Shown: piece by piece, positions 1 to 6,505 of the stretch
How positions within the stretch are numbered: the stretch's first letter is position 1
Layout: every line of letters starts with the position of its first letter
Source: Desulfosarcina cetonica JCM 12296
GTDB taxonomy: Bacteria; Desulfobacterota; Desulfobacteria; Desulfobacterales; Desulfosarcinaceae
Assembly (NCBI RefSeq): GCF_001311845.1
Contig: NZ_BBCC01000036.1
Coordinates: forward strand, 1 to 41,220
DNA: 41,220 bases
Direction: 5' to 3'
The notes under the pieces: generated by a model
Seen by the model: only the letters and a program-made list of their open reading frames with translations
Told to the model about the DNA's origin: nothing
Database searches by the model: none
Position numbers and translations under genes: made by a program

Positions 1-582
1 TCCGCGGCGGGAACTCACCCGACGACCGGGACGACGACATTGGTTTCCGGCTGGTTTGCCTCCCAGGTCAGTGAGCCAGGCAGCAGCGTAGCGTGGCGGC
101 ATTGATCCCGCAGACGCGGAGGGCCGTGCCGGAGCAGGCTCGTAGCCGTCGGAGGGGCAATGCCGTCATCGCGTAGCGGCCAGGCCGGAAAAGAGAAGAA
201 TGCGCCGCAGGCCGCGCACATTTTTAGCCTTTTTTATCGATCTGCAAAAAAACCTGACGCCTTTCCTTATTCTGTCAACCCCGCCGATCGGTACACCGGA
301 TCGGCGGATAGATCGGCTTCCAATCCCCCGCGAGACCTCGCAGCACCTTTAATCCCCTTGAATATTCAGCCCGATTCTTTCCTTCCATTTTTCCTGATGA
401 ATGTCTCACCCTTCGGATTTTGATCATTCTCGCAGAAAAGGCATGGGTCTTGCCGTAGTCAGTCGGTAAGGGCGACGCGCAGGTCAACCCTGTTGGCCGC
501 AACCTGTTCGTCAGATTGCGTGAGAAATGCGATTCGTGCGAGCCGCCTCGCGACTGCTGAACTCCCATTGCCGGATGCCGCC
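1..582. other. Leading intergenic region, no confident gene
   Basis: No open frame here shows a recognisable domain, a ribosome binding site or homology that I can name. Short frames exist on both strands (for example 15-221 minus and 160-423 plus), but their translations are rich in Pro, Arg and Ser with no hydrophobic pattern and look like chance frames in GC-rich DNA. The stretch contains T- and A-rich runs around 222-257 and a perfect 9-bp inverted repeat at 281-307. It presumably holds the promoter of the sensor kinase operon starting near 583. Confidence 0.5.
281..307. repeat. Inverted repeat, 9-bp perfect arms
   Basis: Arms 281-289 (ccgccgatc) and 299-307 (gatcggcgg) are exact reverse complements around a 9-base loop that can itself pair GG with CC. 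No T-run follows, so a classical intrinsic terminator is unlikely. It could be a terminator of a gene to the left of the window or an operator for the kinase operon; I cannot decide. Confidence 0.4.
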
Positions 583-2520
583 ATGTTCCACTCCATACGC
601 TTCAAACTGATCGCCAGCCTCATCGCCGTATCCCTGCTCGTCGGCTTGATTTCGATTCTCGTCGGCGGAAACCGTTTATATCAGTCGGTGCTCGACGAGG
701 CCCATAACCGCATCCGCCAAGATCTCAACGTCGCGCGGGTGATTTATGATGATCGGGTCGACACCATCCGCATGGCCATGGAAACCATCGCCTCCACGAC
801 GACCCTGAGCCAGGCGGCGATGGTTGCCGATCCTTCATCGGTCCCCCCGTCGGTCAATGCCTTGGCCAACCGTATCCATTTGGACTTTCTGGGGATTACC
901 GATATGGCGGGGCAGGTTTTTTTCCGTGCCGGCAACCCTGCACCGGAGAATCGCGTCATCAGCGAAAATCCCCTGGTTCGTTGGGTGGTCGAGCGGAACC
1001 AGCCCATTGCCGGAACCGTGGTCCTGAGCGATGCCCAGTTGCGCGCCGAGGATCCGGAATTGGCCGTTCAGGCCCGAAGCACCATGCATGCCTCTCCGTT
1101 GGTGCCTGGATCCAGCGACGGGCTGACCATCGGCGCGGCGGTCCCGATCGTCGCCGACGGCCGCAGGGTCGGTGTGCTCTACGGCGGCTGCCTGCTCAAT
1201 GGCGATACGGCAATCGTCGACAAGATCGGTGAGACGGTCTTCAAGAACGAGATCTACAAAGGGCGCCACGTGGGAACGGCGACGATCTTCCATAACGATC
1301 TCCGGGTCGCCACGAGCGTCAAGGATGCCGCCGGCAACCGCGCCCTGGGAACGCACGCTTCACCGGAGGTTGCCCGTCGCGTGCTGGGAGAAGGCAAACG
1401 CTGGACCGACCGTGCCATGGTGCTGGCCGACTGGTACATTACCGCCTATGAGCCGCTGGCCGATATCGCCGGCAACCGGGCGGGCATGCTTTACGTGGGC
1501 GTGCTGGAGAACAAGTACGCGGACATTCGCAATAAGGCCATCGCCATGTTCGCCGGCATTACCCTGGCCGGCGTGCTTTTCGCCATCGTGCTCAGCTGGC
1601 TGCTCACCGGGCGCATCATGCGGCCGGTGAGCTATCTCATCCGCGCCAGCGCGGAGATCTCCAGCGGCAACCTCCATCCGAACATCGGACCGATTTCCAG
1701 CGACGACATCGGCCAGCTGCAGAAGAAGTTCATGGTCATGGTGGAGGCCTTGCAGGAGCGGGAACGGATGCAGCGCAAGGAGAGTGAAACCCGCCTGATC
1801 CAGTCGGAGAAGCAGGCCAGCGTGGGTAAACTGGCCGCCGGCGTGGCCCATGAGATCAACAATCCGCTGACGGCCGTCCTGACCTTCACCCACTTGATCC
1901 TGCGCCGCACGGACCTGCCCGAGGACGTGCGCGACGATCTTGCGGTCGTGGCCGCCCAGACCGAACGGGTGCGCGGCATCGTCAAGAGCCTGCTCGACTT
2001 CTCCCGCCAGACCGAACTCACCCCCACGGCCATGGATGTGAACGTGCTGGTCGAGGACAGTATCCGGCTGATGGAGAACCAGGCCCTGATCAAAGGCATC
2101 GACCTGGTTTTCAAGCCCGACCCGACCCTGCCCATTCTGGTGCTCGACCGGAACCAGTGCCAGAGCGTGTTGATCAACATGATCCTCAACGCCTTCGACG
2201 CCATGGCGGCCGGCGGCCGGATCGAGATCACCACCCGCAATGCCGGCGAGGGGCCGAAAGGCGGTGTGGAAATCAGCATCGCCGACACGGGCAGCGGCAT
2301 CCTGCCCGATCACCTGGACAAGCTGTTCGATCCCTTTTTCACGACCAAGCCCGTGGGCAAGGGCACGGGATTGGGCTTGGCCGTATCGGCCGGCATCATT
2401 CAGCGCCATGGCGGGGTCATCACGGTCAAATCCAAACCCGGATCCGGCGCCACCTTTACCATCTGGCTGCCCCACCGTCCGCAGGATGGAGGGCAGGAAC
2501 TTCCGGAGGTCCAGTCATGA
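583..2520 (+). CDS. Membrane sensor histidine kinase (Cache-HAMP-HisKA-HATPase)
   Basis: A 645-residue inner-membrane kinase that senses a periplasmic signal and phosphorylates the receivers encoded downstream. In order: transmembrane helix at about residues 8-27; an extracytoplasmic Cache_3/single-Cache-like domain to about 325; a second transmembrane helix around 327-352; HAMP; HisKA with the H-box GVAHEINNPLTAV; and a HATPase with N-box NMILNAFDAM, G1 DTGSGI, F-box FFTTKPVG and G2 GTGLGLA. The frame is open upstream to a TTG at 493. I choose the ATG at 583 because the hydrophobic helix starts right after it, but neither start has a good Shine-Dalgarno. It overlaps the next regulator by 4 bp (ATGA), indicating translational coupling. 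No receiver is attached, so the partners are probably the two downstream receivers. The ligand is unknown; a small carboxylate is plausible for a Cache kinase beside an FNT channel, but this is inference. Confidence 0.9.
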   Translation: MFHSIRFKLIASLIAVSLLVGLISILVGGNRLYQSVLDEAHNRIRQDLNVARVIYDDRVDTIRMAMETIASTTTLSQAAMVADPSSVPPSVNALANRIHLDFLGITDMAGQVFFRAGNPAPENRVISENPLVRWVVERNQPIAGTVVLSDAQLRAEDPELAVQARSTMHASPLVPGSSDGLTIGAAVPIVADGRRVGVLYGGCLLNGDTAIVDKIGETVFKNEIYKGRHVGTATIFHNDLRVATSVKDAAGNRALGTHASPEVARRVLGEGKRWTDRAMVLADWYITAYEPLADIAGNRAGMLYVGVLENKYADIRNKAIAMFAGITLAGVLFAIVLSWLLTGRIMRPVSYLIRASAEISSGNLHPNIGPISSDDIGQLQKKFMVMVEALQERERMQRKESETRLIQSEKQASVGKLAAGVAHEINNPLTAVLTFTHLILRRTDLPEDVRDDLAVVAAQTERVRGIVKSLLDFSRQTELTPTAMDVNVLVEDSIRLMENQALIKGIDLVFKPDPTLPILVLDRNQCQSVLINMILNAFDAMAAGGRIEITTRNAGEGPKGGVEISIADTGSGILPDHLDKLFDPFFTTKPVGKGTGLGLAVSAGIIQRHGGVITVKSKPGSGATFTIWLPHRPQDGGQELPEVQS

Positions 2521-2888
2521 GAGTGTTGATTGTCGATGACGATGCCATCGTGATCCGAAGCTGCCGACGGGTCCTGGAGGCCGAGGGCATGGACGTCCAT
2601 ACGGCCAGCACGGTGGAGAAAGGAGAAGAAATGCTCGCCGATGGCGATTTCGACCTGATGCTGACCGACATCAAGATGCCCGGCCGGGACGGCTTTGAAA
2701 TGATCGCCCGGGCCCGCCGGATCCGGCCCGGGTTGCCGATCCTGATGATGAGCGGCTATTCGACCGCCGGGACCATCGCGGACGGCCGTCGCCTGGGGGC
2801 GGACCATTTTATCGCCAAACCCTTTACGCCGGACGAGCTCTTGCAGGCCGTGCGGCATACGATCGCGCAAGTTGATGAACCACGCTAA
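2517..2888 (+). CDS. Single-domain response regulator (CheY-like)
   Basis: A 123-residue stand-alone receiver. The acidic pocket is D7-D8-D9, the phospho-acceptor is D51 in LMLTDIKMP, the switch Ser lies in MMSGYS and the conserved Lys in FIAKPFTPDE. There is no output domain; the protein ends a few residues after helix alpha-5. The start ATG overlaps the kinase stop (ATGA), and the next gene begins 18 bp downstream. It can only act by protein-protein contact or as a phosphate relay or sink. Its context suggests it shares the upstream Cache kinase with the receiver fused to the FNT channel, for example as a competing phosphate sink. Identity as a receiver is certain; its target is not. Confidence 0.92.
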   Translation: MRVLIVDDDAIVIRSCRRVLEAEGMDVHTASTVEKGEEMLADGDFDLMLTDIKMPGRDGFEMIARARRIRPGLPILMMSGYSTAGTIADGRRLGADHFIAKPFTPDELLQAVRHTIAQVDEPR

Positions 2889-2906: not shown

Positions 2907-4156
2907 ATGGCACAAACGATGTTGATCATAGACGACGATACGGCGGTACTGGCATCCTGCCAGCGCATTTTTACCGAGGAGGGCTTTGAGGTGACCACCA
3001 CCACGAATCCGTTGGACGGTCTCGACATGGCCCAAACCAAGGCCTACACGGTCATCCTCTGCGACTGGCATATGCCCGAGCTTGACGGCATGAACGTCGT
3101 CTCCCGGCTTCAGACCCAGGCGCCGGAATCGGCGGTGGTGATGATCAGCGGGTATCCGTCGGTGGACCGCGCCACCGAGGCCATGAAGCGCGGCGTGATG
3201 GACTACCTGCCCAAACCCTTCACGCCCGAGGAAATTTCCAAGGCCGTCAACAAGGCCATCTCGGCCAAACTGCTCCAGGAGAAGAAGACCATGGGGATGT
3301 TCGAGAAGTTCATGGAGAAGTTCCCCACCCAGAGCCTCGATGACAAGGGACCCAAAATCATCGCCGAAACCGTGGCCCAGACCGTGGGGGTCGCCAAGGC
3401 CACCTCCCCATGGCTCTCCCTGTTCGTCCTCGGCGTGATGGCCGGCGCCTATATCGGTTTCGGCGGCCTTTTTTCCGCGTCGGTGACCTTCGACATGCGC
3501 CCGCCCTGGGCATCGGACTGAAGAAGCTGGTCACCGGCGCCGCCTTCAGCCTCGGGCTCATGCTGGTGGTCATCGCCGGCGCGGAGCTGTTTACCGGCAA
3601 CAACCTCATGGTTTCCAGCGTGATCACCGGACGCACCACCTGGCGCAAGGTCCTGGCCAAATGGGGGCTGGTTTACGGCGCCAACTTCATCGGCTCGATT
3701 TTACTGGCGCTCCTGTTCTATGCGTCGGGGCTCTGGAAGACGGGCAACGGCGCCTTGGGGCTGGTCGCCTTGAAGACCGCCTACGCCAAGGTGCACCTTT
3801 CCACCGGCGAGGCCTTTGTACGGGCCATCGGCTGCAATTGGATGGTCTGCCTGGCGGTGTGGATGGCCCTGGCCTCGCGCCAGACGATCGGCAAGATCTT
3901 CGCGATCTTCTTTCCCATCATGGGATTCGTGGCCATCGGCTTCGAGCACTGCGTTGCCAATATGTACTTCATCCCGACGGGTATTTTTCTCAGCCGCTGG
4001 GCCGGGTTGAGTGCCACGGGACTCGACCTTTCGACGCTGACCTGGGGAGCCTTCGTGGTGAAGAATCTGATCCCCGTGACCGTCGGCAACATCATCGGCG
4101 GTGCCGTTTTCGTGGGCCTCGGCTACTGGGGCGCCTACCTCAGGCCTTCGCGATAG
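2907..4156 (+). CDS. Receiver domain fused to formate/nitrite transporter (FNT) channel; frameshift near 3497
   Basis: A predicted 416-residue fusion. Residues 1-120 are a CheY-type receiver (D9-D10-D11 pocket, phospho-acceptor D53 in VILCDWHMP, SGYPS switch, KPFTPEE lysine). A linker of about 40 residues leads without a stop into a complete FNT pore: first helix SLFVLGVMAGAYIGFGG, signature AGAELFTGNN, NWMVCLAVW, and GFEHCVANM with the central pore histidine. The frame breaks near 3496-3498: frame 0 reads SASVTFDM and stops at 3521, while frame 2 carries ALGIGLKKLVTG to the end. One added base (1251 nt) restores a continuous protein. A Shine-Dalgarno (gggagg, 2892-2897) precedes the ATG. An internal ATG at 3291 with an upstream aggag could in principle give a separate FNT, but nothing interrupts the fusion. 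FNT proteins are pentameric channels for formate, nitrite, hydrosulfide or lactate-like anions; the substrate cannot be read here. Confidence 0.85.
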
Positions 4157-4172
4157 ATCCGCCCAATCCGCC

Positions 4173-4206
4173 ATGGCCGTCTTCCCCGGCATGGGAAGAC
4201 GGCCAT
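4173..4206. terminator. Bidirectional hairpin between convergent genes
   Basis: Perfect 14-bp arms at 4173-4186 (atggccgtcttccc) and 4193-4206 (gggaagacggccat) enclose a 6-base loop. It sits between the stop of the FNT fusion (4156, plus) and the stop of the solute-binding protein (4234, minus). A pronounced T-run is absent, so strength is uncertain, but position and symmetry fit a shared terminator. Confidence 0.7.
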
Positions 4207-4233
4207 CCGTTGGATCGGCCATGCGATTCCCGA

Positions 4234-4969
4234 TTATCGGTAGGCCGCATGGATTTTCTCCAGTTCACCCCCATTGATCAATGCCTTCAGCGCCGTATCA
4301 AAGGCCGGTAGAATCGACGCATAGGCGGATGACTTGCCGATACACAGGTTGAGCGAGGTCGATTCCAATACGTTGGGCAGTTGAATCACGCTTTTCTCAT
4401 ATCCCAGCTTCTTGATATGATAACCGGTCGATATCGCGCCGCCGATGTAAACGTCGTATCGGTTTTGAGATATCAGAAACAAGGCTCGATCCAGCGTCGG
4501 AACCCAGGCCACCTGCCGCTTCCCAAGATTTTTTCGGGTCCAGCCGTTGCCGATGTAACTGACCGTCGTGAACCGCAGTAAATCGGAGACGGTTTTGACG
4601 GTTTCGATTTCCCGAACGCGGCTGTTTTCCGGGTTGCTGAACAGCGTCACGGTTACCGTTGACACCGGAACCCTGCCGATGTTCGTATACGCTTCGTGCC
4701 GGTGTGGGAACGGAAATAAAGGCATCCGCTTCGCCGGTTCTTACCATTGCCTGCGCCCTTTCCCATGGGTATCCCGTGTGACGGACCAAAAGACCCATTT
4801 GGGTACGGACGATCCGGTCGGTGACATCGATCAGAATGCCCTTCATGCAGCCATCTTCCCGATAGGAATAGGGCGCGAAGTCTTCAAAATAGACAAACTT
4901 CATCGGATCCTCGGCAAAGGCCGAGCCGGTAACGAGGAGAAAAACAAGCAACGCGCCTGAAAGTCGCAT
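4234..4969 (-). CDS. Periplasmic solute-binding protein, SBP_bac_3-like; frameshift near 4698
   Basis: A 244-residue exported protein of the amino-acid-binding (family 3) type. The N-terminus has a signal peptide (MRLSGALLVFLLVTGSAFA, cleavage probably after AFA), followed by the family pattern FVYFEDFAPYSYREDG and KGILIDVTDRIV. The frame changes near 4693-4708: the upstream part reads ADAFISVPT and the downstream part continues EAYTNIGRVPVSTVTVTLF to HAAYR at the C-terminus. Removing one base makes 735 nt, an exact reading frame. The Shine-Dalgarno is ggaggg just upstream of ATG 4969. No permease or ATPase gene is adjacent, so it may be an orphan binding protein used for sensing or a helper of a distant ABC transporter. 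It is divergent from chrA, with 224 bp between the starts. Confidence 0.75.
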
Positions 4970-5193
4970 CTATCCCTCCGAATCGATCATGACGAATCTG
5001 AAATATGTCGAACTTAGGATTCTGTATGCTGCCGATGGAATCGCTTGATCGATTTTCAGGACGAGGGTGACAATCGTTGTTTTGCGGAGAAGCCGGTTTC
5101 CATGCCGGTGGTGCTTTGATTCATCGGTTGATAAGCATTATCTTCGTTCAAAGACATGCAGAAATCAAGCACCTTCAAACGGGAAAAATAAAC

Positions 5194-6505
5194 ATGAGCC
5201 ATTCACCCCATAAGGGACCGATGTCAACGGCGTCCTTTCCGGAGGCGCTCAAATTCTGGACCAAGCTGGGCTTTATCAGCTTTGGCGGGCCGGCCGGACA
5301 GATCGCCATCATGCACCAGGAGGTGGTCGAACGCCGAGGCTGGCTGGGCGAGAATGCATTTTTGCGGGCGCTGAACTTCTGCATGCTGTTGCCCGGACCC
5401 GAGGCCCAGCAACTGGCCACCTACATCGGCTGGCGGCTGCATGGCACCTGGGGCGGAATTGCGGCCGGATCGCTGTTCGTGATTCCTTCGATATTCGTCA
5501 TGCTGCTGCTCAGCTACCTGGCCGCCGCCCATATCGATATCCCGGCCGTGGCGGCGGCCTTCTACGGCATTCAGCCGGTGGTGGTCGCCGTGGTCATCGA
5601 GGCGGTGCTGCGCATCGGTAAAAAGGCCCTTCGCCACCGCGTGCTCCATGCCTTTGCCACCGTGGCCTTTATCGCCATTTTTTCTTCAACATCCCCTTTC
5701 CCTATATCGTGGCCGCAGCCGCCGTCGCCGGCCTTCTCATGCAGCCTCGCCTGCCCCAGGTATTCTGCAAGGGACAATTCGACGCCAACACCCGTGAGTG
5801 CCGGGTCGAAGCAGAGGCGCGGCTGCCCAGCCGGTCCAAGCCGACGCTCGGCCATGTGGCCCGCGTTTTTTCACTTGCTTCGTGCTCTGGGCGGCGGTGG
5901 TGGGCGGCATTTGGATATGGCGGGGAAGCGAGGATACCGTGACCCAGGTGGGGCTGTTTTTTACCCAGGCCGCTTTCGTCACCTTTGGCGGGGCCTATGC
6001 CGTTTTGAGCTATATTACCGCCGTGGCCGTGTCCAGCGGGTGGTTGTCCACCGGGCAGATGCTCATCGGCCTGGGGTTGGCCGAGTCCACGCCCGGCCCG
6101 CTCATCATGGTGACCCAATATGTCGGCTTCCTGGCTGGCTGGCATCTGCCCGGCGGGCTCGATCCGTTGCTGGCCGGAGTCATCGGCGCTTTGGTGACCA
6201 CCTATGTGACTTTTTTACCGTGCTTCTTCTTCATTTTCGCCGGCGCACCCTTTATCGAGGCCATGGCCGGCAACCAGCGCATCCAGGCCGCGTTGACCGG
6301 CGTTACCGCGGCGGTGGTGGGGGTGATCCTCAATCTGGCCGTCTGGTTCGGCCATAATGTCGTTTGGCCCGCCAGCGGTGTGGATCCGTTCGCACTGGCG
6401 TCCATGGCCATTTCACTGGTGTTGCTGCAGCGATTCCATTTCCCCATCCAGTACCTGGTGCTGCTGGGCGCGGCGTCTGGCGTTGTCTGGCGGATGATGG
6501 CCTGA
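5194..6505 (+). CDS. chrA: Chromate transporter family protein (ChrA, long form); two homopolymer frameshifts
   Basis: A predicted 437-residue inner-membrane protein of the CHR family, long form with two homologous CHR halves. The first half shows FGGPAGQIAIMHQEVVE, RRGWL and LLPGPEAQQLATYIGWRLHG; the second shows FVTFGGAYAVLSYI, SSGWLS and GLAESTPGPLIMVTQYVGF. The frame breaks twice: at the T6 run at 5679-5684, and at the T6 run at 5866-5871. One extra T in each restores an unbroken protein (FIAIFFFNIPFPYIVAAAAV and VFFTCFVLWAAVVGG). The ATG at 5194 is chosen; ATG 5221, preceded by aaggga, is an equally plausible start. CHR proteins are classically chromate/sulfate antiporters, but in many anaerobes the physiological substrate is unproven. 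Its 3' end converges on the dCache kinase gene. Confidence 0.88.

Follow-up and report, generated by a model that had tools for sequence, protein, structure and literature searches.

Can the receiver of a two-component system be built into the same polypeptide as a membrane channel, and, if so, what would such a protein do? The question is raised by a locus near the start of a 41,220-nucleotide stretch of DNA from Desulfosarcina cetonica (the whole stretch analysed, termed the 'window' below), where an open reading frame at 2907-3521 on the forward strand encodes 204 amino acids that comprise a receiver, a linker and the start of a formate/nitrite channel of the FNT family, all in one frame. 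The Response_reg profile (PF00072) covers residues 6-115 of this protein (E 1e-27), with the acceptor aspartate D53 lying within the motif ILCDWHMP, and the start of the Form_Nir_trans profile (PF01226, profile positions 5-46) covers residues 155-197 (E 2.6e-7, a match of 30.7 bits that by itself falls below the 34.6-bit cut-off). The remainder of the channel is found in a different forward frame, at 3410-4156, where profile positions 49-239 are matched with an E value of 2.3e-71 (240.4 bits); the pore threonine (codon 3593-3595) and the pore histidine (codon 3947-3949) are both encoded in this second frame. No DNA-binding output domain was found by Pfam in the first reading frame, which yielded PF00072, PF01226 and a sub-cut-off YqeY match only. 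The features of the locus are as follows.

493 to 2520, forward strand: sensor histidine kinase with sCache_3_3, HAMP, HisKA and HATPase_c domains (Pfam), counted from the first possible start, so that the true start may be further in
2517 to 2888, forward strand: stand-alone single-domain response regulator (PF00072, Pfam E 9.1e-29), its start overlapping the kinase stop
2907 to 3251, forward strand: receiver domain of the fusion (PF00072), acceptor D53 at 3063-3065, beginning 18 bases past the single-domain regulator
3252 to 3317, forward strand: linker (alignments; model of the relative L056)
3318 to 3500, forward strand: N-terminal cytoplasmic helix and first membrane helix of the FNT, in the frame of the receiver (PF01226; FocA alignment)
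3490 to 3500, forward strand: frame break, an indel on the scale of one base that splits the FNT (reading frames; relatives uninterrupted)
3500 to 4156, forward strand: rest of the FNT pore in the other forward frame, with a C-terminal YLR (PF01226; FocA alignment)

The Pfam matches and the coordinates of the reading frames thus bear out the preliminary description of this locus, which had claimed that a complete receiver with D53 runs in frame into an FNT; the frame break on the scale of one base that it placed at 3490-3500 is there as well, the FNT frame changing near 3498-3500. The receiver-FNT fusion is real, and its uninterrupted form is found in many other genomes. Within the taxonomic family, 12 of 30 genomes contain an FNT match, and in eight of them receiver and channel form an uninterrupted frame; the other four are the window genome itself (split), two with stand-alone FNTs and one with fragments only. 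In a sample of the order, 64 of 291 genomes have an FNT match and 16 an uninterrupted fusion, three of which are also among the family's eight. Fifteen of these 16 sequences were read, and the last (G039) is counted on a full match to residues 1-184 and a frame of 425 amino acids; long frames in G299, G046 and G042 lie outside the count (the matches of the latter two being below the cut-off), and locus L033, missed by the motif regular expression, was counted through its match to a model that spans the receiver and the first channel helix. At E 1e-35 or better, that model is matched by 33 of 395 genomes in a sample of the phylum, 11 of them (the window genome included) over its whole length, and in the phylum to which the genome of locus L087 belongs the whole model is matched by six of 247 genomes, in one case in a frame of only 216 amino acids.

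The family and order draws together gave 20 full-length fusions that were read, of 412-427 amino acids. When 84,980 genomes of named species were scanned with two short exact patterns, 77 loci were obtained, a number that is therefore a lower bound; of these, 43 are full fusions of 410-427 amino acids (L044-L088 minus L071 and L075, a set that overlaps with the 20). Six further loci (L071 and L089, L090, L091, L092, L093) match without a full-length frame and L075 is cut by a contig end; the remaining loci comprise 11 with a sister fusion described below (ten intact, and L102, which looks broken), a receiver frame of 147 amino acids (L105) and 15 weaker receiver matches (L106-L120). The hosts of the 43 fusions are isolates and metagenome-assembled genomes (MAGs) of Desulfobacterota, together with MAGs labelled Spirochaetota (here including Spirochaetes, Spirochaetales and Spirochaetaceae), Acidobacteria and Candidatus Latescibacterota, labels that for MAGs can be wrong. 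A viral collection returned one locus, with a 31% match over residues 84-138.

Two trivial origins of the architecture can be set aside. Chance in-frame read-through is ruled out by the conservation of the fusion across many genomes, and the joining of separate genes by assembly error is ruled out by its occurrence in two complete chromosomes, those of Desulfosarcina alkanivorans (L056) and Desulfosediminicola flagellatus (L045). It is also present in three chromosome-level MAG records (L057, L067 and L087). The possibility that homologs always encode the two parts as separate genes likewise fell away, the homologs that were read being fused. In five of seven hand-picked genomes the fusion is the sole FNT match, while G683 carries an extra fragment and G680 (Spirochaetaceae) a second FNT. 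This second FNT (L194, 2041-3255) has C-terminal CBS domains and is flanked on either side by a receiver-like gene, the upstream one of which was profiled. FNT fragments were also seen in two genomes at loci L014/L016 and L015/L196: in G013 instead of an intact gene, and in G012 besides one.

Conservation within the fusions extends to both halves. In all 43 intact fusions the receiver residues D5, D6, D49 and K99 (L056 numbering) are invariant; position 77 is serine in 41 and threonine in two, and the residue three before the lysine, which we take to be the aromatic-switch position, is tyrosine in 33 and phenylalanine in ten. The PF00072 domain thus comes with the acidic pair, acceptor aspartate, serine or threonine, and lysine of a response regulator, and the fused receiver is, judged by its residues, phosphorylatable. 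In the channel, the threonine and histidine equivalent to FocA T91 and H209 are invariant in the same 43 proteins, and both are present in the window. FocA K26, F75, L79, K156, F202, N213 and N262, residues with roles in FocA, are kept in each of seven fused relatives aligned with FocA, as well as at those of the positions that the window pieces reach. The C-terminal Y-L-R/K motif is likewise kept (Y in 42, L in 43 and R or K in 38 of 43; YLR in the window). The mean share of the majority residue is 0.75 in the receiver, 0.67 in the linker, 0.83 in the FNT N-terminal helix and 0.80 in the membrane part.

A related receiver is found on a second output. In ten loci (L094-L101, L103 and L104), a protein of 329-331 amino acids joins to a NuoE-like domain a receiver that is 52-58% identical to that of the FNT fusion used as query, the similarity extending to query residues 143-159. 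The one member profiled (P0001, from L097) contains a thioredoxin-like [2Fe-2S] domain of the NuoE type (PF01257), the others being assigned by length and sequence; NuoG-, sulfide-dehydrogenase-, GltD- and NuoF-like genes follow. In CP070704 (L195), both fusions occur in a single 11-kb cluster of nine genes on one strand, which runs from the receiver-NuoE fusion (3511-4512) through NuoG-like, sulfide/dihydroorotate dehydrogenase-like, GltD-like and NuoF-like genes to a Cache kinase, a single-domain regulator, a 224-amino-acid regulator of the 208-amino-acid class described below and, last, the receiver-FNT fusion, the receiver-NuoE protein and both stand-alone regulators having been placed by sequence similarity alone.

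Trees were built for both halves of the protein. In the FNT tree, 44 fused rows, including the C-terminal piece from the window, fall on one side of a branch (support 65/67, and 68% of 200 bootstrap trees), in an analysis with few outgroups, with long E. coli branches flagged, and without three of the 16 stand-alone loci (L038, L039 and L043), which the motif filter did not find. The tree is consistent with a single origin of the fusion, which is weakly supported. In the receiver tree (a quick method with 121 columns and many forks unresolved, using at most 15 stand-alone regulators per class plus the single-domain one of the window, and omitting rows that lacked the motif or were too short), the receiver-NuoE proteins form one group (97) and the receiver-FNT proteins need two changes, so that the former branch within or beside the latter. 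The single-domain regulator of the window falls among its single-domain counterparts from related loci.

One cluster of kinases (c1; members from L044 and L057 were profiled), Cache-type as in the window, is found upstream of the fusion in 38 of 47 loci, and together with a second cluster (c7, assigned without profiling) in 40 of 47. Four of the seven loci without either have less than 1.4 kb of upstream DNA; in L058, L069 and L083 no such kinase was found in 3-6 kb of upstream DNA. Of the 40 kinase-bearing loci, 33 also have one to three separate upstream receiver genes on the same strand. A cluster of sigma-54-type regulators (c3, profiled through its L061 member) lies within about 5-6 kb in four of the 47 loci (L050, L061, L067 and L088), and a transcriptional arm is therefore possible. 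The neighbourhood survey is partial and rests on profiles of a minority of the neighbouring genes. A class of 208-amino-acid regulators also occurs beside the fusion (L055 5266-5892, L060 32-658, L080 5352-5978 and L087 5274-5900); in these the receiver is followed by a conserved C-terminal segment of some 90 residues, ending near WLE.RL.AE.W, for which the one member profiled (from L055) gave no Pfam match and no known output domain.

As for what passes through the pore, the channel is probably one for formate. The intact relative L056 passes the general FNT model TIGR00790 (252.3 bits, cut-off 232.3) and scores 228.7 bits against the FocA equivalog TIGR04060, under its cut-off of 290.1, and it is therefore described here as FocA-like rather than filed as FocA. 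Its predicted structure matches FocA (3kcu_A) with an E value of 4.1e-13 and a TM score of 0.84 by target length. The Y-L-R/K ending has been described for FocA-like or formate FNTs (excerpts of PMC5572259). A formate dehydrogenase alpha subunit (TIGR01591, above cut-off) is encoded no more than about 2.5 kb from the fusion in three of 47 loci (L087, L079 and L076), all labelled Spirochaet-, with NuoE- and NuoF-like genes lying between the two in L087; genes of a MobA-like cluster occur in L060, L079 and L087 (the L079 member was profiled).

That the pore carries some other small anion (bicarbonate, acetate, hydrosulfide or nitrite), the control by the receiver being unchanged, is a doubtful reading, though one for which several observations can be cited. 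LciA (9v2a), a bicarbonate FNT, comes second to FocA, and close behind it, when matches are ranked by sequence and fold. Several of the named hosts belong to sulfate-reducing genera, a point in favour of another substrate. In L057 the fusion is followed by an acetyltransferase and an acetyl-CoA synthetase-type enzyme, whose clusters (c14 and c15) recur in L052, and in L044 by a partial phosphate acetyltransferase match; moreover, a hydrosulfide FNT is known (PMC5572259, as excerpted). Against this stand the FocA-like Y-L-R/K end, the formate dehydrogenase neighbours, and the ranking itself, in which FocA entries come first, well ahead of NirC and HSC. As a separate observation, the genes past the fusion in L057 (7582-11682) include a PAS kinase after the two enzymes just named, and may represent an acetate-related layer of control.

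The reading that we favour, to which we assign a probability of about 0.6, is that the protein is a response regulator in a single chain, with an FNT channel as its output domain, by means of which a kinase sets formate flux directly. The cytoplasm is the side of the membrane on which kinases act. FocA has its termini there (excerpts of PMC5572259), and its N-terminal helix is bound by PflB, an interaction that presumably gates the pore and permits a T91-H209 bond (PMC11841067, as excerpted). By alignment with FocA, the fusions keep this N-terminal helix, with the receiver placed ahead of it. A monomer model of L056 (mean pLDDT 76.6, pTM 0.56) comprises the receiver, a long helix leaving it (103-133), a shorter one at 148-156 and the helices of the FNT; the linker, probably helical, extends the last helix of the receiver in this model. 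With pLDDT values under 50 over residues 125-162, the placement of the receiver relative to the pore is of low confidence.

In line with the preliminary description, the architecture suggests that the channel may be opened or closed by the kinase itself, with no change in gene expression in between. In the sequence of events proposed, a signal from outside the cell, which may be formate or another small organic acid, would be sensed by the upstream Cache histidine kinase, which would phosphorylate D53. The channel being expected to form a pentamer, as many as five receivers could be modified in this way. The packing of the receivers would then change and with it, by way of the linker, the channel's N-terminal helix, such that formate flux would be raised or lowered fast, without transcription. 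An sCache-domain chemoreceptor for formate is known (PMC8698456). The pentamer, phosphorylation by the adjoining kinase, gating and its direction, and formate as the substrate are all steps that we infer. That one kinase may act on both transport and a redox enzyme is hinted at most strongly by the CP070704 cluster, which holds both fusions, and we put forward only tentatively, as an unlikely extension, that one membrane kinase sets a formate channel and an NAD(P)H-linked electron-transfer complex with a NuoE-like subunit post-translationally by way of sister receivers.

Signalling might instead run in the reverse direction, the channel acting as a sensor or membrane anchor. The fused receiver would then take up or return phosphate according to the state of the channel, signalling would be tuned by anion flux, and stand-alone receivers would give the output. 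The separate upstream receiver genes in most kinase-bearing loci and the occasional sigma-54-type regulator would fit such a circuit, as would the precedent of CbrA and CrbS, which join transport-like domains to signalling (excerpts of PMC8871633 and PMC5436829). In those proteins, however, the transporter-like domain sits on a kinase and not on a lone accepting receiver, while the receiver here adjoins the equivalent of the FocA gate helix, and the one 208-amino-acid regulator profiled is without a known output domain; we consider the reverse direction improbable.

Nor do we think it likely that the receiver is a docking module, whose phosphorylation recruits formate dehydrogenase or another enzyme in a PflB-like manner while leaving the gate itself unmoved. 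PflB does control FocA from the N-terminal helix (PMC11841067, as excerpted), and the occurrence of a similar receiver on NuoE-like subunits, with both fusions in the CP070704 cluster, would accord with such recruitment, but formate dehydrogenase lies near the fusion at three of 47 loci only.

There remains the split in the window copy. Per 300 kb, the window assembly contains 81 frame switches in which the two frames are each open for at least 80 nucleotides, and the complete relative G012 contains 22, an excess of 3.7 times in a crude scan (of the initial 20 kb from each of 15 G000 contigs and of 15 spaced stretches of G012) that also counts ordinary overlapping genes and of which only the ratio is used. 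Comparisons of the window pieces with L048, L056 and L004 gave dN/dS values of 0.05-0.13 in the receiver and linker and in the FNT past the break, and of 0.01-0.07 for a 60-codon piece, values that point to purifying selection on either side of the break but are rough, dS (0.8-3.1) being near or beyond saturation. Low dN/dS on both sides, with the excess of frame switches, makes it most likely that the split arose either from an error in sequencing or assembly or from a mutation of very recent date. Six of the 50 loci L044-L093 are broken, one is cut by a contig end and the rest are whole. A programmed frameshift is not favoured, intact relatives needing none. Decay of the window copy into a pseudogene, which would leave no working fusion in the D. 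cetonica genome, is a remote prospect, to which the break near 3500 and the FNT fragments in two genomes of the same genus (G012 and G013) lend something, and against which stand the single break seen, the low dN/dS on either side of it and the commonness of such breaks in this assembly. Elsewhere in the window, two chromate-transporter matches in two frames at 5077-6505 switch near 5679, maybe another assembly frame break, and a solute-binding-protein-like gene at 4234-4969 on the reverse strand seemingly spans two overlapping frames, one with a borderline SBP_bac_3 match and the other with none.

If phosphorylation does gate the pore, the fusion would be a response regulator with a membrane channel as its output. 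It would also bring a genetic switch, built into the protein itself, to bear on FNT gating, a question still open. Formate exchange, which is important in syntrophy and sulfate reduction, would then be set by a sensor kinase without awaiting gene expression; and if the sister fusion answers to the same kinase, the result would be a two-component circuit whose outputs are a channel and a redox enzyme, with no transcription factor.

The preliminary description knew of no characterised example, which agrees with the open-licence literature: among the matches listed, no description of a receiver-FNT protein was found. Outputs of the formate or FNT type are also absent from the excerpted portions of two signalling censuses, PMC1183210 (which omits other output domains) and PMC5847659. 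The architecture may well be visible in domain-architecture databases, which lie outside the literature covered. The nearest published relatives found are the transporter-kinase fusions of the CbrA/CrbS type, sensor kinases with an SLC5 transporter-like domain, which likewise combine such a domain with two-component parts (PMC8871633 and PMC5436829, as excerpted), CrbS having a receiver as well; there, the transporter-like domain forms the input side of a kinase, whereas the fusion joins a channel to an accepting receiver and has no kinase domain. MetOD3, a membrane-anchored output domain of response regulators that is restricted to methanogens, resembles the fusion in pairing a receiver with a membrane-bound output region, for which the excerpted text names no channel family (PMC5847659). 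With FocA of E. coli, and the FNT family at large, the fusion shares the fold, the pore residues, the N-terminal cytoplasmic helix and the Y-L-R/K end; FocA, however, is without a receiver and is controlled by the binding of PflB (excerpts of PMC11841067), whereas the fusion carries a receiver of its own. The receiver-NuoE-like protein has a related receiver and linker start, with a [2Fe-2S] domain rather than a channel as its output. Finally, CheB, PleD and RpfG are response regulators with enzymatic output domains, in which the receiver directly controls an output that does not bind DNA, as is proposed here; their outputs are enzymes, whereas that of the fusion is a membrane channel.
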